Shown here: piece after piece, positions 17,818 through 64,000 of the stretch
Layout: every line of letters starts with the position of its first letter
Numbering within the stretch: position 1 is the stretch's first letter
Assembly (NCBI GenBank): GCA_903813345.2
Contig: CAIIXF020000010.1
Location: forward strand, 34,709,425-34,773,424
Direction of reading: 5' to 3'
Origin: Owenia fusiformis
Lineage: Eukaryota; Annelida; Polychaeta; Sabellida; Oweniidae
DNA: 64,000 nucleotides
The notes under the pieces: model-generated
The model's database searches: none
Told to the model about the DNA's origin: nothing
The model's input: only the letters and a program-made list of their open reading frames with translations
Position numbers and translations under genes: made by a program

Positions 17818-19692
17818 TTACTTATATGGGTAGGCTGTTGGCCTATATTGTTCGCAATTTGGAGGTAATTCAGGGAGAAAGACTCTATATCTTGGTAAAG
17901 TGTTACAATTAGTCGTACGTGTTTCAAACGAAGATCCTATGCATTTAGTTGTACTCCCCCAGAAAGAGTAACGTGTTCCACGTGTTCTTATTCCCACTTG
18001 GTCGCAACTAAGTTGACAAGGTTCAAAAGCATACCAAGATGTCCAACTGCCCCACTCACAGTACACTTTGAAAATAAACAAGAAAAACATGGTTACCTTC
18101 AGTAGTTTATAACTAGACTCTGCGCGCAGGGTACCAATTTAATGATATTTCCGGGGAAATTTAGGCTCATCAAACTCCAGAGGAATTCGACATGGACATA
18201 CCTATGAAGTTGAGAGGAATAAAACTGACTTTCACCTTGAATCTTGAGCGGAAATTGACATGGACAAAATGCTCAATAGGGGCACATAGGTAATAAGAGG
18301 TATATTGGAGTGAAACCCCCGGGGTAGGATTCTTAAAATGACTTTAAATTACAGGACTAGAATTTAATGTATGACGTTAATCACGAAGTCTATTAGTAAG
18401 AATGCTTTATAAATGTTTATTTATAATTATGAATAACATAAACATAAGCAATGCTTTATAAATAAGAGTAACAGTAAGAATGCTTTATAAATGTTTATTT
18501 ATAATTATGAATAACATAAACATAAGCAATGCTTTATAAATAAGAGTAACAGTAAGAATGCTTTATAAATGTTTATTTATAATTATGAATAACATAAACA
18601 TAAGCAATGCTTTATAAATAAGAGTAACAGTAAGAATGCTTTATAAATGTTTATTTATAATTATGAATAACATAAACATAAGCAATGCTTTATAAATAAG
18701 AGTAACAGTAAGAATGCTTTATAAATGTTTATTTATAATTATGAATAACATAAACATAAGCAATGCTTTATAAATAAGAGTAACAGTAAGAATGCTTTAT
18801 AAATGTTTATTTATAATTATGAATAACATAAACATAAGCAATGCTTTATAAATAAGAGTAACAGTAAGAATGCTTTATAAATGTTTATTTATGATTATGA
18901 ATAACATAAACATAAGCAATATATAATCGTTAGGTGACTGAAATGGAGATTTACTGAAATAGAGATTTCAATTGTTTGGTGGTAATGGCAAAAAGTTTAA
19001 AATTTTAAGTTTAAAAATGTTTAAAAAGTCAATGCGTATATGGGCCCTATGTATTATCTCAAGTAAAAGTATATTTTGTGCTTACTACATTTCTGTGTGT
19101 TACATGACATGGTCCTTGTTTCTGTAACTGTCCCAGATACACAATGAGTGTATTTTCTGGTTCTTCTATCCCGACGTGTCCCTCCATCACATGAGCTAGA
19201 ACAACGACCAACACTCCATGGCGACCAAGATGTCCATTGGCAGCCTAAATAAACAATTTTATTTCAGTTATTGAATTGGAATTTATTTTGAACTGTTTGC
19301 CAGTTTGGTGGATGAGTGTGTAGCTAGATGGGCGTCTCAATGTCTAGAAAATCTAGAAATTATTATTCTGCATCCTTAGTTCATCTTTGTGAGTTAATCG
19401 TTTTCAGACAAACAGTTTCATACATAGATTTCCCCCCAGCCGTCTTTAACTTCAAATAGGAGTAACTTGTAGATTATATACATGTAGCCTAGTAATCATA
19501 ATTGAACCCTTCTTACAGTAGTTAATACTTACTCAATTGTTCAACAAGGATTTCCAGTTTATCAACCCTTTCTATGAGTTGTTTGACATCATCATCAGTT
19601 TTTGCCGCTCCAACTACAGTGAAAGAAAATTCTGAAAAGCTCAAAATAGTAATCCCAATCCACACAGCGTGCATGAGTGTTAAATTTGTCAT
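17818..19692 (-). CDS. Gene A: secreted coiled-coil protein with two TSP1 domains
   Basis: Three exons on the minus strand: 19692-19533 (ATG), 19244-19086, 18065-17818 (stop TAA). Both introns are phase 1 with consensus donors (GTAAGT, GTAAGC). They give 188 residues. Residues 1-30 are a signal peptide (MTNLTLMHAVWIGITILSF... ending near VVGAA), and about 32-53 form a short amphipathic coiled coil (VKQLIERVDKLEILVEQL). TSP1-1, about 54-106, has CQWTSWSPW, CSSSCDGGTRR and the basic RRTRK strand. TSP1-2, about 107-188, has CEWGSWTSW and CQLSCDQVG, with a C-terminal extension. It is close to gene C in exons 1 and 2 and in the 5' flank, while exon 3 resembles that of gene E. No collagen segment is present. 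A role in extracellular recognition or matrix is inferred from the domains only. Confidence 0.85.
18395..18920. repeat. 78-bp minisatellite, about 6.8 copies, in gene A intron 2
   Basis: The unit beginning AGTAAGAATGCTTTATAAAT recurs at 18395, 18473, 18551, 18629, 18707, 18785 and 18863 with almost no differences. The last unit runs into ...AGCAATATATAATCGTTAGG. That word also stands, unrepeated, in the matching intron of gene D (near 38325) and in a related form in gene C (near 35748), so the array grew out of single-copy intron sequence. Confidence 0.93.
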
Positions 19693-19930
19693 AGCTCTGA
19701 TATTATAAGTTTTACAGTCAGAGTGTTCAATGTTGTTTGCAATTGCAATGAAGTTGTTTCATAACTTCAATATTGAATATTCAGTTTATAATATGTAATA
19801 ATTCAAAATGTAATGTAGACATTTGCATACTTCATTTAACTTAGTCCATCAATGTTTTAAATATAGCATCATTTTATTTCTGAACTGCCAGTGTTTTATT
19901 ATTCAGCATTATTCAATGTGTCGATTGGTA
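19693..19930 (-). promoter_or_regulatory. Conserved 5' flank of gene A
   Basis: About 200 bp upstream of the ATG is nearly identical to the flank of gene C (36440-36650) and recognisably similar to the interrupted flanks of B and D. Shared words include TATAATATCAGAGCT just before the ATG and GCAATTGCAAACAACATTG. Conservation may reflect recent duplication rather than function, and no transcription start can be fixed. Confidence 0.4.
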
Positions 19931-20145
19931 TTGATACTTCTTATTTTTCTTTATTTATTAAAATCGATGTAAAATATTTACAGGTTTTACTGGCTATAAT
20001 GACCCCAAATATGTTCTGTATATTCTGAATTTCTCGAACATAATATATCCTGTATTGCACTTCAAATCATTCAATAACTTAAAATTTATGCGTTCAGTGC
20101 GTTGTATTGAATATCTCAGTCCCAGAACGATCGTTTAGATTAAAT

Positions 20146-20232
20146 TCCATTGTTTGTAAGTTTATCATTAAGCAAAATTGTATGGTCAATTGAGTCAAAG
20201 GCTTTTAAAAATCGCTTTTATATAATGGACAC
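20146..20232 (-). mobile_element. Fragment of a LINE reverse transcriptase
   Basis: The minus strand reads KAFDSIDHTILLNDKL, the finger/palm block typical of non-LTR reverse transcriptases (KAFDxxDHxxLL.KL). The frame does not continue far on either side. The homologous flank of gene C diverges exactly where this piece starts (about 20146), so it is an insertion specific to the gene A/B copy. Confidence 0.55.
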
Positions 20233-20778: not shown

Positions 20779-21739
20779 CTAATGCTGCATGAAATGTCGA
20801 TGGCGAATATATGCCCCAGTCGGCCCTCGGTTACCAGTTGCACCTTTTGGCCCTTGTTGACCTGTTGCCCCCGTCGGCCTTCTGTCACCTTTTGCACCTT
20901 TCGGCCCTTGTGGACCTGTTGCCCCAGTCGGCCCTCGGTCACCAATTGCGCCTTTTGTTCCTGGATCACCTTTCTGCCCTTTTGGACAAATGATACATGG
21001 TGGTGTACCTTTTGGCTCCTTTGACCCTTGGTCATCTTTTGCATCTTTTTGCTCTTTGTCACCTTCTGTACCTGTTTGCCCTTATGGACCTGTTCCCCAA
21101 ATGGGGCCTTTTTTGTTCACCTCTTTCACATTTTTTCCCCTTTTGGACCTGTTGCTCCAGTAGGTCCTTGGTCACTTCTGCCCCGGTATGCCCTCGGTCA
21201 CCTGTTGCACTTTTTTGCCCTTTTGACATGTTGCCCCGTTAAGCCCTTTGCCACCTTTTTGCCCTTGTGGACCTGACGCCCCGTTCAGTCCTTTGTCACC
21301 TTTCGGTCCTTGTGGACCTGTTGATCCAGATGGTCCCTGTTCACCCCTTGTCCCAGGGGATCCAATCCAATTGGGCCTTGACTGCCATTGACACCTGCGT
21401 TTCCTTGATCACCAATTCTTCCTGGAAATCCAGGCTTCCCCCTGATACCCTGTTCACATTTATCTCCCTTTGGGCCTTTCACTTTCCTAATTTTCACGTT
21501 TTACTACATTTTTTGCTTAATTGTTCAAACAGAATTTCAAGTTTGATGACGCTTCTCTCCAAAACAGCTATTTCAATAGCTTGATCTCTGAGATCTCTTT
21601 GCTGTTCCATAACAGTAATCGAGAGTTGTTTGAATTCATCATCAGTTGGTGCTGCTCCAACTATAGAAAAGTGAAATCCTGAAAGACTATAAATAGTAAT
21701 TCCAAACCACACAGCGGGCATGATTGTTAAACATATCAT
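20779..21739 (-). pseudogene. Gene B: decayed collagen-type paralogue of gene D
   Basis: Host gene relic. ATG at 21739 begins MICLTIMPAVWFGITIYSLS, collinear with gene D's signal peptide, then AAPTDDEFKQL and a coiled coil VLERSVIKLEILFEQL. The frame stops just after KKCSKT, where D has KCNEKC. Collagen triplets continue in another frame (GPKGDKCEQG, GKPGFPG, 21490 to about 21355), in a third frame ([19 protein letters not shown], to about 21215), then in a badly substituted stretch, and again cleanly from about 21005 to 20800 ([26 protein letters not shown]). At least three frame breaks are visible and there is no splice donor after the collagen; the last open stretch runs to a stop at 20779. 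The [11 protein letters not shown] motif is shared with gene E. Confidence 0.85.
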
Positions 21740-21762
21740 AGCTCTGGTCTTATATGTGTTAT

Positions 21763-35250: not shown

Positions 35251-36439
35251 TCAACGATGACGGTCATCGGGGAACCTTATTCTTTCACATTTTCCATAAC
35301 GATAATCAAGAGAATTACAGCGCACGAACTTAGTTTCAGACTGTGAACCTGGACATTTGACCGGGATACGTATTCTATGCGCAGGTTGCAGTGTGCAATA
35401 CCCGTCACATGGTCCAGAAGCTCCCCAAGCTCCCCAGGTGCTCCACACAAGGCAGTTTTCTATAAAAGAAAACAAGAAAACCATGGTAACTAATACTCAT
35501 ATTTTTTACAGTTTATCCTTTGACAAGAGTAGCGGTTCCTGGAGTCAGAACCCCATACTGAAATGTTTATGGTTATGAGTGGATGACACTTTAAAAAGTG
35601 TATATTCCCAACAAACAGTTTACAAAATCATGCCAAAATGCAGCGTTTGTCCATCAGAATAACTTCTTATGAAATTGTCTTTACCTGAACCTTTCAGTAA
35701 AATGTCATTTGGGATGAGTGGGATCCTAGTTTCGAATAAACCATACAGGAGCAATATATTTAATCGTTTGATGACAGAAATGCGGTTGTCTATTATTCGG
35801 TCGTAATGGCAGACTGTCATGTCAATTAAAAGGCCAATTTGAGCAAGTACAAGTATATTATTTTGTGCTTACCTTTACATATTATGTGTGTGTTACACTC
35901 CACGGTCCTTGTTTCTGTAACTGTCCCAGATACACAATGAGTGTATTTTCTGGTTCTTCTATCCAGACGTGTCCCTCCATCACATGAGCTAGAACAACGA
36001 CCAATACTCCATGTCGACCAATCTGTCCATTTGCAGCCTAGATAATTCTTATTTCAGTTATTAAATTGTAATTTATTATGAACTGCTTGCCAGTTTGGTG
36101 GATGAGTGAGTAGCTAGAAGGGTGTCTCGATATCTAAAAAATCTAGAAATTATTATTTTACATTCTTAGTACAATGTGAAACAGTTTCACACAAAGATTT
36201 TCTCCCCAGCCGTCGTTTTTAACTTCAAATAGGAGTAGCGTGTAGATTATATACATATAGTGATAATATTAATGCTTACTCAATTGTTCTACAAGGATTT
36301 CCAGTTTATCAACCCTTTCTATGAGTTGTTTGACTTCATCATCAGTTTGTGCCGCTCCAACTACAGTGAAAGAAAATTCTGAAAAGCTCAAAATAGTAAT
36401 CCCAATCCACACAGCGTGCATGAGTGTTAAATTTGTCAT
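35251..36439 (-). CDS. Gene C: secreted coiled-coil protein with two TSP1 domains
   Basis: Exons 36439-36280, 36037-35873 and 35459-35251 (stop TGA), phase-1 introns, giving 177 residues. Signal peptide and coiled coil are almost identical to gene A (AAQTDDEVKQLIERVDKLEI). TSP1-1 has CKWTDWSTWSIGRCSSSCDG and TSP1-2 has WSTWGAWGASGPCDGYC with KCPGSQSETK. Exon 3 and its 3' flank are near-duplicates of gene D (37330-37517). Gene C thus looks like a mosaic: A-like 5' half, D-like 3' half. It lies directly downstream of D on the same strand with a gap under 1 kb, so a D transcript could in principle splice into it. Confidence 0.86.
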
Positions 36440-37329: not shown

Positions 37330-40300
37330 TCATCGGGGAACCTTCTCACATTTTCCATAACGATAATCAAGAGAATTACAGCGCACGAGCTTGGTTTCAG
37401 ACTGTGAACCTGGACATTTGCCCAAGGTACGTGTTCTACGCGCAGGCTGCAGTGTGCAAGACTCGTCACATGGTCCAGAAGCTCCCCAAGCTCCCCAGGT
37501 GCTCAACACACATTTTTCTATAAAAGAAAACCAGAAAACCATGTTAACTAATACTCATATTTTTTACAATTATCCTTTGACTAGAGTAGCGGTTCCAGGA
37601 GTCAGAACCCCATATTGAAATGTTTATGTTTATTTCCTTTTATATACACACACTTATTCCATAATACTACTGTTTTCCCAGGGAAATATGAAGGAATAAG
37701 AATCGTATTGAATCGTATTACATGAAAAAATCGTATTGTCCCCGGGAAAAAATCGTATTGGAGCGTATCACATGAAAAAATCGTATTGTCCCCGGGAAAA
37801 AATCGTATTGGAACGTACTAACCTATTTTTGGTTTTCCTGTTATCTTTAACCTTACCTAATTGATAAAAGCATTATCAAAATATAACATTTTAGTGGAAT
37901 GTATTATAGAATAAATAGGTTATTTCTGGTCGGGATTGAATATGGGTTTCATTCCTCGGAAAATATGATGTTGACCTTGGGAAATATGATATTGACACTC
38001 GGTCGCTGCACTCCCTCGGTCAATATCATATTACCCTTCGGTCAATATCATATTGTCCCTTGGAATAAAACCCATATTCAATCCTTCCCAGTAAATAACC
38101 TATATATATACAATAAATCAGTGGGTGACACTTTAAAAAGTGTATATTCCCAACAAACGGTTTACAAAACCATGCCAAAATGCAGCGTTTGACCATCAAA
38201 ATAACTTCTTCCATTCGAAAGTGTCTTTTCACAACACTTTACCTGAATCTTTCAGTAAAGTGTCATAAGTGGGACGAGTGGGATCCTAGTTTTAATAATT
38301 ATGAATTACATAAACCATACAGGAGCAATATATAATCGTTTGGTGACAGAACTGCGGTTATCTACAGGGCGTCAAATAAGTCTGTTCTCCCCACTTAACT
38401 TTAAAGGGAATTTAATTTGCTGATCACACACCAAATTTCAGAGAGATTGGTTAAAGGAGCACGTCGGTTATCGCAAACAATTTCAAACGATTCTAACTTG
38501 AACATGGGTGTATCTAAATAGATCCATTCATTATCTTCAAGAAAAGTCTATATAGTGATCATTTAGTTAATCAGACGTGATATTGAAGGGTCAATGGACC
38601 GATCAACATACTTTTTCAAAAATGTTGACCAAATTTTCACCAAAAATGCAACATTTGATACATCACAATAAAGAATAGTAATGCATTAAACATTGTAAAA
38701 AATAATTGCATTTTTGGTGAAAATGGGGTCAACATCTTTGAAAAGTGTATTGATGGGTTGATTGCTAGTTAAATATCTCTGAATTTGTTTGACTTTATTA
38801 TTACTGTATATAATTTTCTTTGAGATAATGAATTGATCTAAAAGATAAACCTGTCTTCATTGTCAGAAAATAGTCATAATCCAAGATATAACCTTCTGAA
38901 ATTGTTTGCGATAACCTACATTCTCCTTTCAATTTTTAAGAGCATTTTTAGTGATGTTCATATTTCACATTTTTTATATAGTTCATATGTTTACCCAAAG
39001 CAGCTTGGACAGTCTCAATTCTACAAGGATACGATTCCAAAATGTTCACGAACAGGGGTGTTGCACTTTCAAGGCTTCTAAAAGCTTTCTTGATACATTT
39101 GATAATGATTAATGTTTCATGGCTATAAAGTTTCTCCTCTGGTTGATCTTCGATTAATTTTTCGACCCTGTCCTTATTAATCGCATTATCAACTTTTCAC
39201 CGTTCGTTCATCACCCTGGTAATTTTACTCTTTTTGACGCAATCAATGGTCAACTACATCCTTTCAAGAAACATTATAGCAATTCTATTAGGAAGAGTTC
39301 ACTATTGATTTTTAAGGGTGATCAGCATGTATATGGAAAAGTATGATAACTTTAAAAATAAAAAAGTTAAGGGGAGAGAACATACTTATTTGACCCTCTG
39401 TATTATTCGGTCGTAATGGCAGACTTTCATGTCAATTAAAATGTCAATTTGAGCAAGTTCAAGTATATTATTTTGTGCTTACTAGGACATATCAACTGTG
39501 TGTTACACGACTTAGTCCTTGTTTCTGTAGCTGTACCAAATAGACAATGTGTTCTTGTTCTTGTTTCCAGACGGGTCCCTCCACCACATGGTTTAGAACA
39601 ATTACCAACACTCCATGGCGACCAATCTGTCCATTGGCAACCTGTGAAATGTTCACGTTAATTTTATAATCCTGGTATTAAATTGTGCCATTTATCAGTT
39701 TGCCACTCTGGCGAACTGAAATGATTATTATCTTGCATGCTTGGTAAATTGCAAGTTGGGTGTTTTCAGTTGTTTTTCATATAGGTTTTTAATTTAAAAT
39801 ACGGGTAATATGGAAAACATGCCAGGCTGCAATACAGATTCTTGTTTCCAACTCCTAAGTTGAATATAATATATAAGACTGTTGACAGGGAGTTAAAAAA
39901 CGGTCATAAATAATTCATTTCTGACAATCTTAGAAATGCAAAGGCACTGTCAATATACACATGTCATGTAACTTCCACCTCCAGGTGTCTGATGGAGCCT
40001 TGCGACTCCATGAGTCAAGAAATCCGTTGACCCTTGGATGGGATTTTTTTAATATTTTCATCTTAATGTTAGGATTTGCACATAAATTAGCTCGTTTTAT
40101 CTTGACATTTGGATTGGATTTCGTCTTAACAATAAACTTAAAATTAGTATTTGCCTCATTTTACTTAATGCACTTATATAAGTTACCTTTCAAATATAAT
40201 AGAGAAGTATATAGAAATGTGTCATGTCAGGCTTGAATCGCCCTCAAAATAGCCGATTAAATGTTAACTCTTGGGTGGGATTTCATTGAAAAACAATTAT

Positions 40301-43300: not shown

Positions 43301-44823
43301 CCATTGATCTACATCAAATTATAGGGAGTCAGGTTACTTTTTGAGATATCAGCGTCCATTTATTGTGACTCGCGTTTGCTACCACTTCCTCAATTCTGAT
43401 ATGATGGGCAAACGCGTAGTAAGCATGCTCACGTCGGAACTATTTTTGACCTACATCGCTATTTTCGTAATTCAAATGAAAGTTGAACTCCTCCTCTATA
43501 TTTTGATACCAAATAGTGGCATACTAGGTACCCTAGAAGCCAACTATGGCGTTATTTAGAACAATACCATGAGTTTTTAAATGGACTATATAGGGGTCAT
43601 ACCTTTTGGCGGATGGATATGGAACCTCATACCCTAAATAAAATAAAGAACAGTCTATAGAAAACCTTTAATTTCACCCAAAACTTAGAGAATATTTGGC
43701 TTCTGACAAACGGCGATTTCGGGCGCTCGCCCCCTGCTATTGAAAGCCCAGCATTAAGATCATATTGTTTAAACAATTGAAACGCTTTCTTAAGTAGTAA
43801 GTACTTACTATCCGCAAAGTTTCCTTTTTCACCCTTTTGACCCTTTTGACCTTTTTGACCCGTTGCGCCAATGGGTCCGAGGTCACCCTTCGCACCTTTT
43901 TGTCCTTTAGAACCTGTTGCGCCAATGGGTCCAAGGTCACCTTTTGCACCTTTTTGTCCTTTAGAACCTGTTGCGCCAATGGGTCCAAGGTCACCTTTTG
44001 CACCTTTTTGTCCTTTAGAACCTGTTGCACCAATGGGTCCGAGGTCACCTTTCGCACCTTTTTGTCCTTTAGAACCTGTTGCGCCAATGGGTCCAAGGTC
44101 ACCTTTCACACCTTTTTGTCCTTTAGAACCTGTTGCGCCAATGGGTCCAAGGTCACCTTTCGCACCTTTTTGTCCTTTAGAACCTGTTGCACCAATGGGT
44201 CCGAGGTCACCTTTCGCACCTTTTTGTCCTTTAGAACCTGTTGCGCCAATGGGTCCGGTAGGTCCTATGTCACCCTTTGCACCTTTTTGCCCCTTTGAAC
44301 CCGTTGGTCCAGTTGGTCCTATGTCACCTTTTGTACCGTTTTGCCCTTTTAAACCCGTTGCTCCTGTAGGTCCTATATCACCGTTCGCACCTTTTTGCCC
44401 TTTTGAACCCGTTGCCCCGGTAGGCCCTAGGTCACCTTTTGCACCTTTTTGTCCAGTGGGGCCCTGACTTCCATTTACACCTGAGTTTCCTTTAACACCT
44501 ATTTTCCCTGGATATCCACGCCTTCCTCGTTGACCCTTTTGACCTTTCACAACTTTACACTTTTCATTACATTTTTGGTTCATTTGTTCAAAGAGAATTT
44601 CTAGTTTGATGACGTTTCTCTCCAAAGCAGATATTTCGGTAGCATGATCTTTAAGATCTCTTTGTTGTTCTTCGACAATATTTGAAAGTTTATCACACTT
44701 TTTCATAAGTTGTTTGAAATCACTATCAGTTGGTGCAGCTCCAACTGTCGTTAAGAAAAATCCTGAAAGGCTCGTCGAAATAATGCCAAACCATACGGCT
44801 TGTATCAGTGCTAGACGTATCAT
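37330..44823 (-). CDS. Gene D: secreted collagen-stalk protein with two TSP1 domains
   Basis: Exons 44823-43809, 39641-39483 and 37517-37330 (stop TGA), phase-1 introns, giving 453 residues. Residues 1-30 are a signal peptide (ALIQAVWFGIISTSLSG). About 35-90 form a heptad-rich coiled coil with Cys pairs (KKCDKL, NQKCNEKC) that could trimerise and cross-link. About 94-333 are nearly uninterrupted Gly-X-Y, about 80 triplets, with seven to eight copies of an 18-residue (54-bp) unit KGQKGAKGDLGPIGATGS. TSP1-1 has CQWTDWSPWSVGNCSKPCGG, and TSP1-2 has STWGAWGASGPCDESC. The collagen frame ends at ADS with donor GTAAGT. Intron 1 holds the composite repeat 41905-43633, and intron 2 holds the TA element 38365-39400. 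The 54-bp near-identical units should be prone to copy-number change. Confidence 0.88.
37701..37817. repeat. Short tandem repeat, 50-bp period
   Basis: CATGAAAAAATCGTATTG, TCCCCGGG and AAAAATCGTATTGGA repeat with a 50-bp period for a little over two units. It lies in gene D intron 2, in sequence absent from the matching intron of gene C. Confidence 0.75.
37915..38103. repeat. Palindromic repeat, about 190 bp
   Basis: ATAGGTTATTTCTGG...GGGATTGAATATGGGTTT pairs with AAACCCATATTCAATCC...CCAGTAAATAACCTAT. The centre carries repeated GGTCAATATCATATT words. GGGATTGAATATGGGT also occurs near 10760 in the ANO8 gene, suggesting a dispersed foldback family. Confidence 0.7.
38365..39400. mobile_element. 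TA-flanked inverted-repeat transposon, 1036 bp, in gene D intron 2
   Basis: The ends CAGGGCGTCAAATAAGT and ACTTATTTGACCCTCTG are inverted (one mismatch), with TA outside each. The homologous intron of gene C reads straight through the target (GCGGTTGTCTATTATTCGG near 35783), giving an exact empty site. Inside is a further palindrome from GGTTATCGCAAACAATTTC (38466) to GAAATTGTTTGCGATAACC (38915). No transposase was seen; Tc1/mariner-type by target and end structure. Confidence 0.85.
40983..41006. repeat. TA microsatellite
   Basis: An uninterrupted run of alternating T and A in gene D intron 1. Confidence 0.8.
41905..43633. mobile_element. Composite element: two 469-bp direct repeats around a 791-bp core
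   Basis: The copies 41905-42373 and 43165-43633 have the same length (469 bp) and differ at only about three positions by eye. Each begins GGTATGAG and ends CTCATACC, 8-bp inverted ends. CTAA stands outside the whole structure on both sides and TTAA stands at both inner junctions. This resembles either a miniature element with long terminal repeats and a 4-bp duplication, or two TTAA-type (piggyBac-like) units mobilised as one. The core (42374-43164) has no recognisable ORF but contains two palindromes GCTACAATGTAGC-like near 42796 and 42885. It lies in gene D intron 1. Confidence 0.75.
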
Positions 44824-52478: not shown

Positions 52479-55400
52479 CTATTTTTTGTAACAGTACCTA
52501 GAATCATCACAATTAACACCCTTAGTTTCAATCGAAGAACCTGCGCATTTAGTTGAGCTGCCAGACGTTTTGGATAGTTCAATACGTTCTCTATGTGCAG
52601 GCTTATGACAGCTGATAGGATTACATCGTTCGAAAATAACCCAAGGTCCCCAATTGCTCCACTCACAGTACGCTATAAAAGAAAGGCAGAGAATCATGGT
52701 TATGCTATAATTAGATTTTCAACAATAGACAATTTATATTTTGACATGTCTCATTAGAATGTAATTGTTGCAGCCCACCTGGCATTCCGATAAAAATCCT
52801 TAAAAACTACCTGCAGACTGTTAACTCAATTGAAAAAAACAGTCGAGGTGTTGTAGGAGTTCAATCATCTCAAAAAAAGTATAAAGGACTAACTACATGG
52901 TTTTATAAAACACGCCATGGTACGTCTTTCTGTAGCTGCACCAGATACACAATGAGTGTATCTTCTCGTTCTTGTATCCAGGCGTGTTCTATTACCACAA
53001 GTTCTAGAACAACGACCAATACTCCATGGCGACCAAGGTGTCCATTGGCAACCTGTGAAATCTCAATATATAATTTTATAATTCTGTTCCTCAATTGTGC
53101 TAGTTTGCCAGTCTGGTGGATAGGTGTGTGGCTAGGATTCTACATATTTTAGAGCTGCAGTAGGGTTCCTCAAAACTAACCTAAAATGTTTTGCCTGGAG
53201 CTTTCAAGACCTACTGGTCCCTTTATTAGTATACTGCCATTGAGGGCAATAGTGTAAATTATTTCCCCTGCGGCTTAGGGAATAGTACATTTTAGAGGAT
53301 ATTCCCAAGGGGAAATCATTTACACTATTGCTCGAAACTAGGCAGTCACTATTTGTTTTATTACATACCATAGATCCCGGCCAGATTCTTTTGTAAGTAG
53401 GATCAGTAGCTCAATAAATATTCCTCAAGATGAGACACCTCAGAAAACTTCAAATTTTAAAATGACGATTATGGAGCCATTTATGAAAAATATGAGACAA
53501 ATCATACCTCATTCGAAGCATCTTGTTATTCTTTAACTTTTTATCCCCAATGACCGTTATTCAAGCAATGCTGCGTTGATAAGAGGCCAAAACAGTGATG
53601 TTTTATCGCCGGACTCTTGTCTGTCCAAATCTGAATGGTGCTCCCGTGGTTCCAGAAATGTGACGTCATCAGTACAATGATATTTGGACACACAAGAGTC
53701 CGGATCTCGTGTAAAATATTCGCCGTATTAAAAGTCAAATAACTGCATCCATAGGTTATTTACTCGAACCAAACAAGTAGAAATAGAAAGATGAAGATCT
53801 CAGCTATAAAATGAGTGCAAAATCTGTCATGGGGAAGCAGGTACCATTTTGTATAAGGAACATTTTTGAAAGGTGGTCATATTTTTTTGAAATTTTCCAA
53901 TTTAGTGTCGTATCTTGTGAATTATTCTTTGAGCCTATGCCAAAGAAGCTGTTCATTTTACCTTCGAATACAGGATGTCCTGATGTTATCTTCTAGGGGG
54001 CGCCCCGTAACGAATCTACGACCTGTTGATGCTGATCTAATATTTCTACAGCTTGCTTCTTGTATTATTTGTTCTTGAATATAACTTCTTATTTAAGGTT
54101 TCTGGGCTTCTAATTATGTTTATCAATTGTTTCATTTCTCATCTCAGCTCAGGTTCTCATTATACCCTTTCTCTCTAACTCTATCTCTGAGGTCAACTGA
54201 ACTTCAACTAACTGCCTGTAACTTTTACTCTACTAATTAATCTTACTTTTTCACACTTACTTGTAAATTGGCTCAATATCTACACTTACTTCTTATAATT
54301 ACTCTGTTTACATCACATCTCCCCCCTTTTTCGAGATGGCGATACTCAGCCAGCTTTAGATTAAAATCATCTGCGACTTGCAGATCATAAAATTCATTAG
54401 ATGTCTTCTCTAAGTTAGTTTAAAGTTTTTTTTTCTTTTTTATTTTATGTAAAAACTACCCTTTTCTCTATATCAACAGTGTCTCTGTCACTTAAGTTTT
54501 TATGTTATTTCTCTGTATACTCTTACAGTCTGGATAAAGCATCTGCACATCCATTAAGTTTGCCAGATCTGTGCACTACTTTGAAATCATACTGCTGTAA
54601 GTTAAGTATCCATCTTGTAAGCCTCTGGTTATTGTTGTGCATTTCATTCAGCCATTTTAGTGGATTGTGATCAGTAACTACAACAAATTTTCTTCCTAGT
54701 AGATAATATCTCAAGTAATTGATGGCCCATACAATCGCAAGACATTCTTTCTCTATCACTGCATAGTTTTTCTCCCTTGGAAGTAACTTGCGACTGAGAT
54801 ACATGATTGGATGTTCACCATCCTTGAAATTCTGACTCAATACTCCAGAGATTCCTATATCAGATGCATCTGTGATCACAAGAAACTGTTTCGTGAAGTC
54901 TGGGCTCTTAAGGATTGGTTCAGAACACAGAGCCTCCTTCAACGTCTCTACTGCAGTTTGTTCTTTATTTCCCCATGGTATTTTCACTGCTACAGATTTC
55001 TTTGTTAACTCTGTCAGTGGAAAGGCTATGTCTGCATACTTTGGAATGAATTTCCGAAAGTATCCCGTCATTCCTAAGAATGTTCTCAGGTTCTTCTTAG
55101 TGTGTGGTTTCTCAAATCTCTGAATTGACTCTGTCTTCTCTGAGCTTGGTCTGACTATACCACCTCCAACTCTGTGTCCTAGATATTCTGCTTCCTGATA
55201 GGCAAATTTACATTTAGATGGTTTTGCAGTTAAATTGTGTTTTCTTAACCTTTCTAGTATAAGTCTGATGTCACAAAGGTGTGCCTCAAAGCTGCTACTG
55301 AAGACCACTAGATCATCGAAATAAGCATCAGAAAAGGCTTCTGCTCCTTCTAACATCTTGTCCATTGCTCTCTGGAATGTTGCTGGTGCCCCATGTAATC

Positions 55401-58400
55401 CAAATGGCATTCGTTTAAATTGAAATGTTCCGAAAGGAGTTAAAACTGATGTCTTCTCCTTGGAATCTTCACTCAGAGGAATTTGCCAAAAACCTCGGCA
55501 TAAATCCATGACTGTAATGAATACAGCTGTTGCTAGCCCATCTAGAATTTCATCTATCCGTGGCATTGGGTAGGCGTCAAACTCTGTTACTTTATTCAGG
55601 TCTCTAAAATCGACACAGTCTCGTAGCTCACCATTTTTCTTCGGTACAAATACAAAGTTGGCTCCCCATTCACTTACAGATGGCTCCATTATCCCTTTGG
55701 AAACCATTTTGTTTACTTTCTCTTTCATTAACTCAACATATGCTTTGGGAAACCTTCTAAGCTTTTGTCTGACTGGTTTTGAATCTTTAGTGTTGATATG
55801 GTGCACAATTATGTCTGTTAGCCCAGGCTCATCTGACAATACATCTTGGTATTCTTGAAGTAATGTTTCAACTCGTCTCTTCTGCTCTCTTGATATGTTA
55901 GGTGAAATGTTGTATTTAACTTCTTCATTCTCTTGTACTGTTGTTGGCCATTGTATTGGCATAAAATCCTCGTCATCATCCTCTTCTTGTATCTCCTCTT
56001 GAATAGTTTCTGTAGTGAAGCAACAGAAGTCATCTGGACTTGTGTACCGTTTCAACAGGTTCACATGGTACGTTTTTACCTTGTTTCCAATTTGAACATC
56101 ATAATTCACTTTGTTACACCTTTTCACAATCTTAAATGGTCCTTGCCATCTTGCTTGCAGCTTCATATTACTTGAAGGCAATAACAGTAATACGTTATTT
56201 CCTGGATGAAACTCTATGTCTCGTGATTTCTCATCGTAATACCTTTTCTGTGTGTGTTTTGCTTCTGCGACATTCTTCTTCACAATCTCTCTAGTATCCA
56301 TTACTCTGTCTCTCATCTGTGTCACATACTCGATAACATTTGTGTTTGCTTCTGTGTTTGGTTCCCATTTCTCAGCTAGTATATCTATCGGTCCCCTTAC
56401 TGCTCTTCCATATAGCAGTTCAAACGGAGAAAATCCAGTTGTCTCATGTGGAACTTCACGATAGGCAAACAGTAAATATGGCAAATATACATCCCAATTC
56501 TCTGGTTTATCTGCTGTCAGCTTTTTGATCATTTTAACTAAAACTCCATTATATCTCTCAGTCTGTCCATTTGTCTGCTGATGGTATGGAGTTGTTTTTA
56601 TTCCTTTTATTCCTATCATGTTGTACACCTCCTGCATTATATTTGACAGAAAATTTGTGCCTTGGTCAGATAAAATTTCTTTTGGGACTCCTACTCTACT
56701 AAACTGCACAATTAACTCTTCCGCTACCTTCTTGGAATCAGTAACTTTCATGGGCACCGCTTCAGGGTATTTTGTTCCATAATCTGTTGTCACTAATATG
56801 TATTTGTTCCCTCTCTTTGATCTCTCTAATGGACCTACTATGTCCATTCCAATAACACTAAATGGTTCTGTGATAATTGGCAGTGGTATCATCTGTGCTC
56901 TGTTGGAATTCATCTTTCGTGATGTCTTTTGGCAGATATCACAACTGTTGCAATATGCTTTCACATCTCTATGGATTCCAGGCCAAAACATCTTCTTCAT
57001 GATTCTCAATGTTGTTTTCTTTATCCCAAGGTGTCCTGAGATAGGAATGCTGTGAGCTAATTCCAAGGTTTTCTTTCTACATTTTTGTGGTAGTACTATC
57101 TGTTCCATGATTTCCCCATTTTGATTTTTGATTCTTCTAACAATCAGGTTTTCTCGCTTTGCAAAATATGGTGTGGCTTGTTCTTCTTCAGGTATCATTA
57201 TAACAGATTTTCTAATATGGGTAAGTGTATGATCTGTTTCTTGCATCTTTATCAACTCTTCTCGGCTGATATCATCTATGTTTGCATCTGTCTCATCAAC
57301 TTTACACATGTTCTTTCTTTGATGTCTCTTCTCTCTTCTTGTTGGCTTGTGTTTTATTTGTGTTGGTGGTTTAAACAGAGTTTCGTCAAAGTGAAATGGT
57401 AGTTTCTCATCTCTATATTCATTGCTATTTGTATGGTTTTCATCGTCAACTTGTATCAGCGTTGCATTAGACTGCTCATCCTTCTCTAGATCAGACCTTT
57501 CTTCTTCAGCCTGCATTTTCTTCTGATTCCTAGTGGTAACAAATGCCCTACTTTTAGTTTTGTATATATATCTGTCCATCTTCTCTTGATCCAGTTTGGA
57601 TAAGATATCTTGCCCAATCAGTACAGAAGCAGGAAGTGTGTCAGAAACAGCTGCCTTTATTTTGTATATTTCATCTTCTATGTTGATCTCTACAACAGCA
57701 GTTGGATAGGATTGTCTATCTCCATGAACACAAGTCATCTCAACTGTTTCGTCATGTGTAACTGAATCATCGTGAATCAGGTCTCTATTGACAATAGTTT
57801 TAAAGCTTCCTGTGTCAAGTATCATCTCCACATCTTCTTTCTCATTCAATTTGGCTAAAACTGTTCCATCTTTCCTTGATTTATATTGTGAAAATATGTC
57901 TTTGGGTAAAGAACAAAAAAATGCTGGTTTTCCTGATCCTAAATAACATTTCTCTTTCACGTGCCCATATCTATTGCATTTTTCACAGTGTAGAGATTTA
58001 TCCACACGGCATTCTTCCGTTTTATGGTTTCGTAATCCACAATTATTACATTTGGGTCTACCATCTGACGTATCTGGTAATTTTCTCTGCCCAATCTTAA
58101 AATTTGAAGAACACTCAATTTCTTTATGTCCAGGTTGGCGACATTTTCGGCAAATAATGTCTTGAGGGCAATCCTTCGAAACGTGACCTTTTTCATGGCA
58201 GTTGTAGCACTCTCCTGAATTCATGCTAGGTTGTCTCCAGTTAGATGAATCAGCACCACTAAATCTTCTGTTACTATTTGACGGCTTCCATCTCTCATTT
58301 TTATTCCAGTATACAGCATCAGATTTTCTTGCCTCTAGAAAGTTATCAGCAAACTTAATAACTTCATCTGTGTTACTGGCATCGTTTTCTTTGACCCACG

Positions 58401-61400
58401 TCTGTACTTCTGCCGGTAGAGTAGTAACTAGCTGCTCTTTGATCAAAACATCACTCATCTCCTCAACTGTTGTAACACCTTTCATCCATTTCTTGAAAAC
58501 ATCTCGAAGTCTGATAGTGAACGGTTGTATTCCTTCTCCATCTTCTCGTTTGAGGTTTCTAAATCGCTTTCTATATGTTTCTGCGTTAATGGCATAGCGC
58601 TTTAAAATTGCCTCTTTGACGATATCATAGTCACTTGCATTATCTTGATCTACACTTGCATATGCTTCTTGTGCTTTCCCGGTAAGGCTTGCTCCCAATT
58701 TTAGAGTCCAAAATTCCTTAGGCCATTTGCACATTGTTGCAGTTCTTTCGAAGATTGTGAGGAAATTTTCAATGTCTTCATTATCTCTTAATCTAGGTAT
58801 AAACGGATCTTTTGGCTTGTGTTTTTCTTCTTTATCTTCTTTTCTTTCTTTTTGACGAAGTTTACGTTCTTCTTCAATCTCCATTCTTCTTAATTCTTCT
58901 TGGTATCTTCTTTCATTCTCTATGTCTATCCTTCTTTGTTCCTCAATTCTTTTCCGTTCTTCTTTTTCAGCTTGGATTTCTTCTCTTCTAAGTTGTTCCT
59001 GAATCTTTCTTTCTTCTTTTTCAGCTTGTATTTCAGCTAGTCTTATCTTCTCCTGTCTTAAGAACATCTCTCTGTCTTGTTCGGTCTTTTTCATCATTGA
59101 AGTCATCATAAACATCATCTGTTGCTGCATCTGTATTGGGTTGAATTGTAACATCGTAGGATCTGGCTCAATAGAGTGTTTTTCTTCAACTGGTTCATCA
59201 GATGCTTCTTCATATTCCTCTTCTTTCTGCTTCTTTTTCTCTTTATCATCCTCCATTTCTTTTGTTGGATTTTCCTCTGGTAATCCTTTATGATACTTTG
59301 TGTTCCTTGTATCAACTGGCATGAGTAATTGTTGTATAATCGCGTTTTAATTTTTACAACAACATAAATCCATTGAAATACGCGGAAAAAATTGTTTAAG
59401 TATAATGTACTGTATAGAAATAAATGCGTAAATTGTTTGGTCCTAATAGGCCTATGTACTTTTATAACATATTGTTATATGAAGTATTAAAAATGTTATT
59501 ATCTATGGGCCTCTGTACTCAATATATATATCAATCAATATATTATACTGTTGAAAATAATTGAACCTAATGGGCCACTGTAGGTGAAAAAAAATTATAT
59601 ACAGTTGTTAAATATTTGGAACTTATGGGCCACTGTAGTGAAACATTTTGTTAGTAGAGTGACTGATAAAAATGGGCCACTGTATTAATCTAAAACTAAT
59701 TTGGTATTAAAATATTTTGTACCAATGGGCCACTGTACCGAAATTATTGGCCATGGGTTCAACTCATTATCACACCAGAACACTTGTTTGTTTTGTCAAT
59801 ACAACGATTGTTTTAAATGGCTTATTTTAATACCTTGTATTGCTATAGTCAAATCTGAATTGCCACTTTCATACAAGGCAGTTCAAACAAGGCTAAAAGC
59901 TAATTGCAATTGCACCTTACTGTTGGTTGAATTCAACTAATGTATCTAATTAATCTAATCTACTACTCATAACTCAATTTCAATCTGTATATTAATCTAC
60001 CCAGTTGACCTCAATATTTTGTTTCTCAAACTCCGAATCTTCTCAAAAGATTTTACTCTGCTCAATTTTTCTACTCAATTGCAGTGTTTCAAATTCTCTG
60101 ATGCAATTTCTCAAATTCTCTAATGCAATGTCTCAAATTCTCATGCAGATCATCTCAATCTGGATCTCTTTGCTTCCCAAGCAAATCTCAATTTCAAAAT
60201 GTTAAATAATCTTCATCTCTTGAATTCTCATCAAAGCCTTGGAAAAGTAATGTAGTTCATGACTTACTGCTTTTGAAGACACGGTTTTCTCACTTACTGC
60301 CCTTGAAGACGTGTTGATTCTGGTATAGCTGCCACCATGCCAAAGAAGCTGTTCATTTTACCTTCGAATACAGGATGTCCTGATGTTATCTTCTAGGGGG
60401 CGCCCCGTAACGAATCTACGACCTGTTGATGCTGATCTAATATTTCTACAGCTTGCTTCTTGTATTATTTGTTCTTGAATATAACTTCTTATTTAAGGTT
60501 TCTGGGCTTCTAATTATGTTTATCAATTGTTTCATTTCTCATCTCAGCTCAGGTTCTCATTATACCCTTTCTCTCTAACTCTATCTCTGAGGTCAACTGA
60601 ACTTCAACTAACTGCCTGTAACTTTTACTCTACTAATTAATCTTACTTTTTCACACTTACTTGTAAATTGGCTCAATATCTACACCCCAGATAGCACGTC
60701 TTTGTTGGCCCAACGTCGGCAATTTTACGTCGGTACCTTGACGTTGGGCCGACGTTGGTTCAAGGTTGTCAAGGCACACTTCTCCGTTGGCCTGAAGTCG
60801 GCAATTCTACGGCTGTAAGCTCACGTTGTACCGACGTCGGTACAAGGTTGGCAAATGACACATCTTTTTCGGTCTGAAGTTAGCAATTTTAGGGCGGTAC
60901 TTTGACGTTGGGCCGACGTTGGTATGAGGTCGTCAAGGTACACTTTTCTGTTGGCCTGAAGTCAGCAATTTTACGGCTGTACGCTGACGTTGTAGACGCT
61001 GCAAATGTTGGACCAACGTTGGCCCAACGTCGTTGTGCTATCTGGGTAGCACTAAAGTACTGTTGGGCCAATGTTGGGCCACCCACCTATCTGTTCCCTC
61101 TGCAAGGCCAACGTTGGGCCAACATTGCCATTAGCACTAAAGCACTGTTGAGCCAACATTGGACCAACGTTGGGCCAACATAATTTTTTGCCAACATTGG
61201 ACCAACGTTGGGCCAACATAATTGTTTGCCACTGTTGGACCAACGTTGGCCCGCTGGACAAAATGACGTTGGGTCAACCGCTCAAGCCGACGTTGGGCCA
61301 ACAGATGCGTAGTTGTTGGCCCGAAGTTGGCCCACTGGCGGTGTGCTATCTGTGCCAACATTGGACCAACGTTGGGCCAATATAATTTTTTGCCACTGTT

Positions 61401-64000
61401 GGACCAACGTTGGCCCGCTGGACAAAATGACGTTGGGTCAACCGCTCAAGCCGACGTTGGGCCAACAGATGCGTAGTTGTTGGCCCAACGTTGGCCCATT
61501 GGCGATGTGCTATCTGGGACCTATCGATCAGTGCAAAATTGCAGTTGGCAAATTGTAGTTGGGCCAACGTTGGCCCGTTGTTGGCTGCCGCTAATACCAG
61601 GAAGCCACCTATCGATAAATCATTGCAAATGCTTAAAAATAGAAGAAAACATACCAGCAGTCATTAAAAAAAATTAAGGTAAATTTTTGTAATATTTTCT
61701 TTCAAAATTATCTGATAATGTTGTTCACCTCAAAAATATGGATTTTCGCCTTGTAATACAGTTAAAACCACTTATAAGGCTACCAAATATATTTAGTATG
61801 GAAAAACAAGCCACCATATTTTATTGATGTAAAACAGATATAATATGTGAACATATTTACAGTAGCAGTACTGAATGCCTAGATAGCACAAAGACGTTGG
61901 GTCAACGTCGCTATCGGTGACCATTGGTTCTCAAGGTTGCAGTTGGCAAGTTATTCATGTGGCCTGTCATTGGCTGCCCAAGGAGCCAACAATGGCTGTA
62001 CAAAAAAGTAAATTGTGTCAACAGTGGGCCAACGTTGGTTCTGTGGTGGCTGCCAATGTTGGACCAACGATGGCTGACGTGGTTGGCCCACCGTCGCTAT
62101 GTCCATTGGCCCAACGTTGGCCCACCGAAAGAAAATATGGTTGGCCCAACAATGGACCTTCGGTGGGCCAACGTTGGGCCAATGGACATAGCGACGGTGG
62201 GCCAACCACGTCAGCCAACGTTGGACCAACATATACGTAATCGTTGGGCCAAAGTTGGCCCAACTGTTGACCAACGTTGGGCCAACCAGTTTTGACCGCC
62301 AATGCGCCAACATCCCTCTTAACATTGTCGGACCAACTGTTGACCAACGTCGGGCCAACCAGTCTTCTTACTATTAGTGGGCCAACTATGGGCCAACGTA
62401 GCTTGAAATCGTGTTGGGCCAACAATGGACCAACGTTGGGCCAATGAACATAGCGACGGTGGACCAACGTTGGACCGATGGACATAGCGACGGTGGGCCA
62501 ACCACGACAGCCAACGTTGGGCCAACAGATACGTAGTTGTTGGGCCAACGTTGGCCCATCAGAGTTGTGCTATCTGGGACTTACTTCTTATAATTACTCT
62601 GTTTACATCACAGCCTATAAGATCCTACTACAAAACGATCTGGCCAATATCTGTGTTACATACCATATAGGTTACTGAGTCTTGTCCCGTTTCCGCTGCG
62701 AAGGCCAAAAAGGCTTAGAAAGCCCCCTCCCGGGTCCATTGTTAGCATTATAAGCTGCGACGTCATCATATGCTCAACATAAATTTTTGCCTAAGAAATT
62801 TCTGAGACTCTCACTTGACAAATTCAATCGCATTTAACACGCGAAATAGATTATCATAACACTTGGAATTACACAGACGTATTGAGCTTAGGGAAATTTA
62901 TCCACGTTGCTTATTGTATCGTTCACGCACGTCTGTCATGGTGAACGGAGTTGATTTTTGTTTGTGCTCATCCTCCATTTTTCTGTTTTTCGTCTGCGCA
63001 GTGATGATGCGCAGACGTTTCCAAGGGTAATAGAAGTTGCAATCGTGACGTCAGCGGGCAATAGTTCAAATGTATTTTCCCTCTGACGTCACATTGGGGG
63101 GATATAACTTTCGAAGGGAAATAGTAAATCTATTTCGGAACACGTGACTAGGTATTGAACAATCAGTATTAGTGTTACATATTGGGTATCCAATACTTCT
63201 GAAAATTTGCGGGAATACTCGTCTCATTTGAACTTTGGCCTTGCAGGATTTCGCTAGAAACGTGAAGAAGTATCAAAATTAACATTCTTAAACTGAGTTT
63301 GAACAGAGATCAGGGTTTTAACTTTAGATAGACAGACGTAGGGGATGGACGTAGCAAGGTCAATGTTCAAATGCGACGAGTATTCTTGCCGATTTTTCAG
63401 AAGTACATTCAAGATCCTTTACTGCATTACCATGAACATTTTCGGAACCCTGGGATCTAGAACTGATTATTTTTGGGTGTGGTAGTTAAGGTGGCCAAAA
63501 TGTTCAGGGGTCGATTGTTTTATCAGACGTTTTTAACGACAAATTAGCAACATATATAGTTTGGTCCAAAAAACTGAATCCTAGATACGATTGATAGAGC
63601 AGCGAACAGCTTCCAATATTTGAATTAAGTCGAACCATGTAACATAGCCTAGTTGTAAGAAATAGTAAATACTCACTGTCTGCAGTGTTCCCTGGTTCAC
63701 CCTTTTGACCTTTTTGCCCCTGTGGACCTGTGTTACCCGTTCTACCAGTTGCACCAGTCGGCCCTTGGTAACCTGTTGTACCTTTTTGCCCTTTTGAACC
63801 TGTCACACCGGTAAGTCCTTCATCGCCTTTTGGACCAGTAGGCCCTCGATCACCTTTTGAACCTGTCGCACCGGTAAGTCCTTTGTCGCCTTTTGGACCA
63901 ATAGGCCCTCGATCACCTTTTGCACCTTTCGGCCCTTGTGGACCTGTCGCCCCAGTAAGGCCTTGGTCACCCTTTTGCCCTTTTGGACAAATAATACACG
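52479..64000 (-). CDS. Gene E: collagen + TSP1 protein, 5' end outside the window
   Basis: Exons 64000 (cut by window edge)-63677, 53052-52894 and 52672-52479 (stop TAG); both introns are phase 1, with donors GTGAGT and GTTAGT. The first exon encodes Gly-X-Y repeats starting with [13 protein letters not shown] and ending GEPGNTADS, collinear with the end of gene D's collagen exon. TSP1-1 has CQWTPWSPWSIGRCSRTCGN and TSP1-2 has CEWSNWGPWVIFERCNPISC with KCAGSSIETK, closest to gene A's last exon. Intron 1 is 10.6 kb because an LTR retrotransposon occupies most of it on the same strand. The CIIC pair inside the collagen could form interchain disulfides. The signal peptide and coiled coil are expected beyond 64000. 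Confidence 0.85.
53233..53346. repeat. Small foldback repeat in gene E intron
   Basis: ACTGCC...GAGGGCAATAGTGTAAATTA-TTTCCCC pairs with GGGGAAATCATTTACACTATTGCTC...GGCAGT. A 114-bp hairpin-forming repeat without coding content. Confidence 0.7.
53611..53701. repeat. Small inverted repeat in gene E intron
   Basis: GGACTCTTGTCTGTCCAAAT pairs with ATTTGGACACACAAGAGTCC around a 50-base loop. Confidence 0.65.
53938..54317 (-). repeat. 3' LTR of the gypsy element
   Basis: This LTR is 380 bp and uninterrupted. It serves as the empty-site reference for the insertion in its twin. Confidence 0.93.
54523..59322 (-). CDS. Gag-pol polyprotein of the gypsy element (1599 codons)
   Basis: Part of the LTR element. 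In order: a charged, heptad-like gag N-terminus (about 20-180), gag core (about 185-340), four CCHC zinc knuckles (about 370-470, e.g. CYNCHEKGHVSKDC), aspartic protease (DTGS near 501), integrase with its HHCC zinc module (from about 757), D,D-35-E core and a GPF/KIV C-terminal module, then reverse transcriptase (YFDD near 1334) and RNase H (TDAS near 1484, SGKLNGCADALSRL at the end). Integrase before reverse transcriptase is the Gmr1-type arrangement. Gag and pol share one frame. Confidence 0.93.
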   Translation of the reverse strand: MPVDTRNTKYHKGLPEENPTKEMEDDKEKKKQKEEEYEEASDEPVEEKHSIEPDPTMLQFNPIQMQQQMMFMMTSMMKKTEQDREMFLRQEKIRLAEIQAEKEERKIQEQLRREEIQAEKEERKRIEEQRRIDIENERRYQEELRRMEIEEERKLRQKERKEDKEEKHKPKDPFIPRLRDNEDIENFLTIFERTATMCKWPKEFWTLKLGASLTGKAQEAYASVDQDNASDYDIVKEAILKRYAINAETYRKRFRNLKREDGEGIQPFTIRLRDVFKKWMKGVTTVEEMSDVLIKEQLVTTLPAEVQTWVKENDASNTDEVIKFADNFLEARKSDAVYWNKNERWKPSNSNRRFSGADSSNWRQPSMNSGECYNCHEKGHVSKDCPQDIICRKCRQPGHKEIECSSNFKIGQRKLPDTSDGRPKCNNCGLRNHKTEECRVDKSLHCEKCNRYGHVKEKCYLGSGKPAFFCSLPKDIFSQYKSRKDGTVLAKLNEKEDVEMILDTGSFKTIVNRDLIHDDSVTHDETVEMTCVHGDRQSYPTAVVEINIEDEIYKIKAAVSDTLPASVLIGQDILSKLDQEKMDRYIYKTKSRAFVTTRNQKKMQAEEERSDLEKDEQSNATLIQVDDENHTNSNEYRDEKLPFHFDETLFKPPTQIKHKPTRREKRHQRKNMCKVDETDANIDDISREELIKMQETDHTLTHIRKSVIMIPEEEQATPYFAKRENLIVRRIKNQNGEIMEQIVLPQKCRKKTLELAHSIPISGHLGIKKTTLRIMKKMFWPGIHRDVKAYCNSCDICQKTSRKMNSNRAQMIPLPIITEPFSVIGMDIVGPLERSKRGNKYILVTTDYGTKYPEAVPMKVTDSKKVAEELIVQFSRVGVPKEILSDQGTNFLSNIMQEVYNMIGIKGIKTTPYHQQTNGQTERYNGVLVKMIKKLTADKPENWDVYLPYLLFAYREVPHETTGFSPFELLYGRAVRGPIDILAEKWEPNTEANTNVIEYVTQMRDRVMDTREIVKKNVAEAKHTQKRYYDEKSRDIEFHPGNNVLLLLPSSNMKLQARWQGPFKIVKRCNKVNYDVQIGNKVKTYHVNLLKRYTSPDDFCCFTTETIQEEIQEEDDDEDFMPIQWPTTVQENEEVKYNISPNISREQKRRVETLLQEYQDVLSDEPGLTDIIVHHINTKDSKPVRQKLRRFPKAYVELMKEKVNKMVSKGIMEPSVSEWGANFVFVPKKNGELRDCVDFRDLNKVTEFDAYPMPRIDEILDGLATAVFITVMDLCRGFWQIPLSEDSKEKTSVLTPFGTFQFKRMPFGLHGAPATFQRAMDKMLEGAEAFSDAYFDDLVVFSSSFEAHLCDIRLILERLRKHNLTAKPSKCKFAYQEAEYLGHRVGGGIVRPSSEKTESIQRFEKPHTKKNLRTFLGMTGYFRKFIPKYADIAFPLTELTKKSVAVKIPWGNKEQTAVETLKEALCSEPILKSPDFTKQFLVITDASDIGISGVLSQNFKDGEHPIMYLSRKLLPREKNYAVIEKECLAIVWAINYLRYYLLGRKFVVVTDHNPLKWLNEMHNNNQRLTRWILNLQQYDFKVVHRSGKLNGCADALSRL
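59323..60337 (-). other. Untranslated leader of the gypsy element
   Basis: A 1-kb stretch between the 5' LTR and the gag start. It holds the repeated ATGGGCCACTGTA motif (59447-59737) and, at about 60085-60150, repeated TCTCAAATTCTC words. Such leaders in this family usually carry packaging signals; nothing specific can be assigned here. Confidence 0.6.
59447..59737. repeat. Six spaced copies of ATGGGCCACTGTA in the element leader
   Basis: Copies start at about 59447 (diverged), 59506 (diverged), 59571, 59626, 59673 and 59725, spaced about 50-65 bp with AT-rich, dissimilar spacers. The four last copies match over at least 12 bases. Confidence 0.85.
60338..62612 (-). repeat. 5' LTR of the gypsy element, split by an insertion
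   Basis: Parts 60338-60685 and 62581-62612 total 380 bp and match the other LTR base for base by eye once the 1893-bp insertion and its 2-bp AC duplication are removed. Confidence 0.92.
60686..62578. mobile_element. CCAACGTTGG-rich palindromic transposon block inserted in the LTR
   Basis: Terminal inverted repeats CCCAGATAGCAC and GTGCTATCTGGG; AC is duplicated at the edges. The same end motif recurs inside at 61035-61046, 61340-61351 (one change), 61507-61518 and, inverted, at 61878-61889, so the block is a composite of several units (for example 60686-61046, 361 bp, is a complete unit by itself). Units consist of dozens of variants of TTGGGCCAACGTTGGCCCAA in both orientations. An ordinary AT-rich segment (about 61620-61870) separates two unit groups. 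No transposase is visible; overlapping ORFs on both strands (NVGPTL-type peptides) are by-products of the repeats. Confidence 0.85.
62618..63195. other. Gene E intron 1 sequence
   Basis: No exon was recognised. It contains several TGACGTCA-like words (62758, 63046, 63084) and is somewhat less AT-rich than its surroundings. Confidence 0.35.
63196..63403. mobile_element. 208-bp TA-flanked MITE in gene E intron 1
   Basis: The ends CTTCTGAAAATTTGCGGGAA and TTGCCGATTTTTCAGAAG are inverted, continuing through ATACTCGTC(T)CATTTGAAC with its partner; TA lies outside both ends. Confidence 0.75.

Follow-up and report, generated by a model that had tools for sequence, protein, structure and literature searches.

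A tandem cluster of putative collagen-stalked TSR genes in Owenia fusiformis, with signs of diversifying and exchanged heads

Introduction

Among known recognition proteins with a collagen stalk, the heads are of lectin, fibrinogen, C1q or scavenger type. The neck of collectins lies after the collagen. Class A scavenger receptors and collectin-12 are membrane proteins, in which a coiled coil is followed by collagen and then by the head. Collagen VI and the matrilins combine vWA domains with collagen or a coiled coil.

Here we analyse a 64,000-nucleotide stretch of the Owenia fusiformis genome (C10:34709425-34773424, hereafter the window), whose minus-strand genes are predicted to encode a coiled coil, a collagen stalk and TSP1 (TSR) heads. 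The original prediction likened these proteins to collectins, ficolins and C1q. The likeness holds for a secreted collagen rod with clustered heads and for a probable trimer (here predicted from sequence), but it does not extend to the kind of head or the order of parts. The heads here are TSR or vWA, Pfam scans of five proteins (A, C, D, E and F) give no C-type lectin, fibrinogen or C1q domain, and the coil precedes the collagen. The family is not a collectin, ficolin or C1q. It has the same order of coil, collagen and head as class A scavenger receptors and collectin-12, but a signal peptide is probable on visual inspection, and neither an SRCR nor a lectin domain turned up in the proteins scanned. 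It shares the six cysteines, the WxxWxxW motif and the three-arginine core of the TSR superfamily (properdin, BAI1, thrombospondin-1 and semaphorin 5A), with matches of profile and fold; here, however, the TSR is joined to collagen, and Pfam lists no other thrombospondin domain (EGF, type 3 repeats or C-terminal) in the same five proteins. Gene F resembles collagen VI and the matrilins in having a vWA domain alongside coiled-coil and collagen segments, but the order is coil, collagen, TSR and single vWA, and the closest relative of this vWA in the genome is a gene on chromosome 1. We found no description of a collagen-TSR family of this architecture in the part of the literature covered, which is weak evidence of absence.

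Results

Six genes and one relic form a minus-strand cluster

The minus strand of the window contains genes A, C and D, most of gene E, and a dead collagen exon, relic B. The modelled genes share a common plan: an exon for a signal peptide and a coiled coil, with or without collagen, is followed by a TSR exon and then by a terminal head. Gene A (19692-17818) is composed of exon 1 (19533..19692; signal peptide and short coil without collagen, supported by alignment), exon 2 (19086..19244; TSR, supported by TSR alignment) and exon 3 (17818..18065, stop included; terminal TSR-like head). Gene C (36439-35251) is composed of exon 1 (36280..36439; signal peptide and short coil) and TSR exon 2 (35873..36037), both A-like by comparison with A, and of exon 3 (35251..35459), a terminal head that is D-like by comparison with D. 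Gene D (44823-37330) is composed of exon 1 (43809..44823; signal peptide, coil and, by triplet count, 81 Gly-X-Y triplets), TSR exon 2 (39483..39641) and terminal head exon 3 (37330..37517). Gene E (64499-52479) is composed of a collagen-containing exon 1, of which 63677..64000 lies in the window and which begins at 64499, TSR exon 2 (52894..53052) and terminal head exon 3 (52479..52672). The exon sizes, with the stop included in the terminal exons, are 160, 159 and 248 nt for A, 160, 165 and 209 nt for C, 1015, 159 and 188 nt for D, and 823, 159 and 194 nt for E.

Two further minus-strand genes, F (74028-68586) and G (83522-79830), lie past the window end, where coordinates above 64000 carry the window numbering on into the adjoining DNA. 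The cluster thus comprises six genes and one relic over about 65.7 kb, and a motif scan found no additional member in about 19.6 kb beyond G or in 9.9 kb below the window start. The modelled splice sites follow the GT/AG rule, and both intron 1 and intron 2 of all six genes have phase 1. The exon models, junctions and phases confirm the cluster genes as exon models, which would be spliced as modelled. They bear out five related minus-strand genes, relic B included, and predicted phase-1 splicing of the first exon to a TSP1 exon of 159-165 nt and then to a terminal exon; the set A to E is sound as to its genes but too narrow in extent, since E begins outside the window and F and G follow.

Relic B (20809..21739, bounds approximate) is a collagen-type first exon recognised by reading of the sequence and by an N-terminal match. 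It retains an open signal peptide and coil, followed by a TGA near the border of coil and collagen and by collagen fragments across several frames; two TGA codons lie inside the N-terminal match.

Other features occupy the same DNA. Between A and C, the plus strand carries a PAN exon and C-type-lectin exons (25479-25916, 30049-30282 and 31080-31349; the first lectin exon was recognised by eye), which interrupt the array and perhaps join into one secreted lectin gene. Intron 1 of gene E holds an LTR-type element (53937-60685, with a minus-strand ORF at 54523-59346), whose two identical 349-nt end repeats suggest a young insertion. Repeats of short period, in which TTGGCCCAAC-type words abound, occupy 60688-62576. 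Intron 2 of gene A contains a 78-nt tandem repeat at 18299-19000, with seven overlapping copies listed, and intron 1 of gene D contains near-identical 300-nt direct repeats (41902-42201 and 43162-43461), of which 140 nt are exactly identical.

The first exon encodes a heptad coil with or without collagen

The long first exon encodes a hydrophobic N-terminus that on visual inspection resembles a signal peptide, followed by a coiled coil, a CxxxC motif and collagen. The collagen comprises 81 unbroken Gly-X-Y triplets in D, 54 in E, 63 in F and 64 in G, so the predicted figure of about 80 fits D only. Pfam identifies Collagen with E-values of 1.4e-39 in D, 1.6e-26 in E and 5.3e-31 in F, and a cysteine-containing break in the collagen, CIIC, is common to E, F and relic B. 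The D collagen exon contains 54-nt repeat units (43775-44539), as would result from collagen growth by whole 18-residue units.

Measured from the first core residue to CxxxC, the coils span 35, 42, 49, 56, 63 or 77 residues, and all 18 lengths measured are multiples of seven. Twenty sequences were run, A and C being cut by the splice site ahead of the cysteines; relic B, C1:34722686 and two genes at C12:34 Mb were left out of the 24 genomic matches described below. Most coils are 49 residues long by shared descent, while six loci differ (two of 35, and one each of 42, 56, 63 and 77). The coils keep a single register, with 79-92% hydrophobic residues at a and d. Together, heptad-multiple lengths and hydrophobic a and d positions support a real coiled coil whose register is under selection.

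In A and C, the 160-nt first exon encodes a coil that is 28 residues (four heptads) shorter than that of D and lacks both CxxxC and collagen; its splice donor sits within sequence that is coil in the long forms. A 35-residue deletion was ruled out, as the alignment gives 28. Two forms of first exon therefore exist as predicted, but the short one is not simply the long one minus collagen. Only A and C, which are near-identical copies, carry the short exon among the 24 N-terminal matches, and it reads as a derived gene form.

The two forms had also been proposed to be exchanged by splicing. Collagen first exons might be joined to the heads of other genes by alternative or chimeric splicing across the tandem genes, and the shared phase 1 of introns 1 and 2 in the six genes means that such cross-gene joins would preserve the frame. 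Nothing in the sequence requires them, however, and the collagen exon upstream of A is dead. Furthermore, the short exons have their own start and a near-identical 213-nt upstream region, suggesting a promoter of their own. We consider such splicing improbable, and favour the short exon as a derived form of the gene.

The second exon encodes a TSR and the terminal exon a weakly TSR-like head

The second exon (156-165 nt) encodes a TSR, in which the six cysteines, the three tryptophans of WxxWxxW and three arginines are invariant in 15 of 15 aligned paralogues. A profile search of the PDB matched the BAI1 TSR at an E-value of 1.4e-5, some weaker rows being LRP6 and not TSRs. Exons 2 and 3 were folded separately. 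The TSR model has a pLDDT of 89.5, and its best 20 Foldseek rows are TSR proteins, none with an E-value below 0.001. Single TSRs score 11.9, 16.7, 20.5, 21.3 and 22.7 bits against PF00090, around its cut-off of 21.6, which marks them as divergent; that of gene E is unlisted at an E-value of 0.01. Exon 2 places the family in the TSR superfamily.

The terminal exon has conserved C, W and R columns in seven sequences. It gives 11 PDB matches with E-values up to 5, each weak, to TSR-bearing proteins; its fold matches are likewise weak, and Pfam finds no TSR there in two members. The terminal exon is only weakly TSR-like.

The gene plan is widespread in the genome

A search of the whole genome (498 Mb, 525 contigs) with the N-terminal query gave 24 matches on eight contigs, and a TSP1-like search gave 136 matches listed, with 150 of 306 candidates scored. 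Of the 24 N-terminal matches, 21 are followed within 15 kb, on their own strand, by one of the TSP1-like matches listed, against a chance expectation of about 0.05 if the 136 TSP1 matches are taken as even over 498 Mb, although TSP1 exons are actually clustered; the three without such a partner are C9:6514952, C7:12494444 and C4:23117539. Some of the 21 are to be read with care: relic B counts through the TSR of A, C364 and C12:4936953 are near copies, C1:34722686 matches chiefly the terminal-exon part of the query, and C9:7521067 and the two places at C12:34 Mb match weakly (E about 0.001). This co-occurrence indicates that the plan is widespread in the genome and that the C10 cluster is a local expansion. 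Big arrays of other TSP1 exons lie at C12:6.17-6.53 Mb, C1:22.9 and 24.2 Mb, and C7:31.0 Mb (150 of 1007 candidates scored).

Gene C is a mosaic of A-like and D-like halves

Gene C agrees with A at 208 of 213 positions upstream, at 157 of the 160 positions of exon 1 and 147 of the 159 of exon 2, and at 25 of 26 where intron 2 begins; intron 1 agrees less well, at only 202 of 238. When C is compared with D, 128 of the 159 exon-2 positions agree, as do 174 of the 188 of exon 3 and 201 of the 207 of the 3′ flank. Within intron 2, BLAST pieces of C and D are 80-84% identical; forcing an alignment over 323 positions yields 59%, owing to the extra sequence in D. Exon 3 of A and that of C are old relatives, with a dS of about 1.6. 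The A-like 5′ half and the D-like 3′ half of C therefore differ in history, with the switch soon after exon 2. On this pattern of identities, gene C is a mosaic, produced in all probability by recombination in intron 2.

Gene F appears to end in a vWA head of chromosome-1 type

Between the TSR of gene F and gene E, neither a motif scan nor the TSP1 matches listed give a TSR terminal exon. Instead, gene F is followed by three in-phase exons encoding a complete vWA domain in 225 codons (Pfam VWA, E-value 1.9e-18, profile positions 1-171 of 174). Their splice sites are canonical, the intron leading into the domain having phase 1 and those inside it phase 0, and the stop is followed by AATAAA. The closest relative in the genome is a vWA gene on C1 with the same three exons, at protein identities of 86, 80 and 68%. 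At the DNA level, F and C1 are 87% identical across 253 columns of the first vWA exon, and the intron upstream still aligns at 72% for 239 columns. The best eight matches after F's own are all on C1, which suggests the direction of transfer. Pfam gave no support to a candidate chitin-binding exon located upstream of the vWA on C1, which was set aside.

Alternatively, these exons could be a stray duplicate with no splicing to F, in which case F decays or ends in an unseen exon. The dN/dS between the F and C1 vWA domains is 1.01 overall and 1.31 in the third exon, so that no constraint is visible. Of the vWA metal-site motif (DxSxS together with T and D), F retains DMSNS but reads TNG where C1 reads TDG, a difference at one metal-site residue. 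Furthermore, further up intron 2, F has about 1.1 kb that is absent at C1. Against a stray piece stand the 225 codons free of stops, the four of four indels relative to C1 that stay in frame, the splice sites, phases and AATAAA, and the lack of a TSR terminal exon in the motif scan and among the TSP1 matches listed. We regard a stray piece as possible but doubtful. The evidence as a whole suggests that the terminal head of F is a vWA of chromosome-1 type, probably acquired by head exchange in intron 2.

The TSR exon shows signs of diversifying selection

One-ratio dN/dS values in the cluster are 0.46 for the signal-peptide and coil part and 0.85 for the TSR exon (0.425 and 0.945 with our own code). 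Site models M1a and M2a were compared in our own implementation with fixed branch proportions; p-values are uncorrected over seven tests. For the TSR exon, a class above one improves the fit in the six cluster genes (2ΔlnL 10.85, p 0.0044), in 15 genes (2ΔlnL 13.57, p 0.0011) and in nine genes outside the cluster (2ΔlnL 6.27, p 0.044), while the same comparison gives no diversifying selection in the signal-peptide and coil part (p about 1 in three sets). The TSR sites above one are positions 5, 46 and 52. None of 80 null simulations reaches the observed TSR value, the largest being 7.4 against 11.3 observed with a cruder optimiser (10.85 with the better fit). For exon 3 positive selection is not significant: the better fit gives a 2ΔlnL of 5.1 (p 0.077), where a poorly started one had given 13.2.

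The near copy of C364, C12_4934314, was dropped from the non-cluster selection and dN/dS sets, and C9_7519567 from the exon-2 sets and the non-cluster N-terminal set. The N-terminal set of all genes is without C4_23100791, C4_23116039, C7_12492944 and C9_6513452, for which there is no exon 2 of the same name.

The signal is unevenly spread. On dropping one cluster gene, the TSR statistic becomes 5.0 without C, 7.95 without A, 10.0 without F and 12.5 without D, so that gene C carries much of it, and recombination among paralogues can inflate site-model tests. Outside the cluster, pairwise counts are 0.23 for the TSR and 0.29 for the coil part, the TSR being no faster. Overall, these results are moderate evidence for heads that may be diversifying on a constrained chassis, most strongly in the cluster.

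The main rival reading is a structural secretion, such as cuticle, tube, mucus or egg coat, in which TSR and vWA heads bind matrix parts, and variety would stem from material requirements and from selection that relaxed once genes had duplicated. Several features speak for it. The commonest triplet is Gly-Pro-Thr (89 of 1069 in 12 sequences), and threonine makes up 19.7% of Y positions, a composition reminiscent of annelid cuticle collagens. The stalk ranges widely, from 54 to 147 triplets across the 12 sequences, and TSR and vWA domains are frequent in matrix proteins. It is, however, unusual for a structural protein to have a site class above one in the TSR and none in the coil, and relaxed selection by itself should yield no such class. 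A structural secretion is a substantial possibility, somewhat short of an even chance. From the sequence we infer secretion and trimerisation, and the heads, which look fast-evolving and have been exchanged, suggest a recognition role without proving it.

Discussion

We give about even chances to the reading that these genes encode a secreted, probably trimeric, collagen-stalked family for recognition or adhesion, with exchangeable heads and local expansion to six genes. In such a protein, the heptad coil would align the chains, probably three, as collagen needs, and CxxxC could lock them by disulphides. The collagen rod would present the TSR of exon 2 together with the second head of the last exon, which is predicted to be TSR-like, or vWA in F, and several heads on one stalk would confer avidity, weak contacts adding up. 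The heads may bind variable extracellular targets, namely microbial or self glycans or proteins, as the selection pattern and the known binding of TSRs suggest.

Two routes of diversification are envisaged: point changes would be selected at some TSR positions, and terminal heads would be exchanged by recombination in phase-1 intron 2. The proposed exchange of collagen and non-collagen forms survives in part, in that recombination makes new combinations (the C mosaic and the F vWA); exchange by splicing finds no support in the sequence, and the short exon occurs at two of 24 matches. The observed change of partners concerns the head, by way of intron 2, and not the first exon. Likewise, the idea of soluble multimeric recognition or matrix proteins with TSP1 heads agrees with the likely signal peptide, the coil, the collagen and the TSP1 domain, but "multimeric" is doubtful for A and C, whose short forms lack the border cysteines and collagen; these would be stalkless forms that need not be multimers.

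More tentatively, and as a view that we hold to be rather unlikely at present, the family may be a germline "chassis and head" system, in which a constrained exon for secretion, oligomerisation and stalk is combined with diversifying heads that are swapped, even between chromosomes, through a phase-1 intron. If this is true, TSR is exchanged for TSR in A, C and D and TSR for vWA in F, and the system would be a non-lectin counterpart of the defence collagens. It would also be a case of young exon shuffling with the recipient and a donor-type gene both still readable: F and the C1 vWA gene are still 87% and 72% alike in exon and intron, which leaves exon shuffling open to study near the event. 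The coil, whose length shifts by whole heptads, offers a clean natural case of selection on structural register. TSR heads under diversifying selection would add a class of head to the collagen-stalked proteins, and with it a new place to seek invertebrate recognition molecules.
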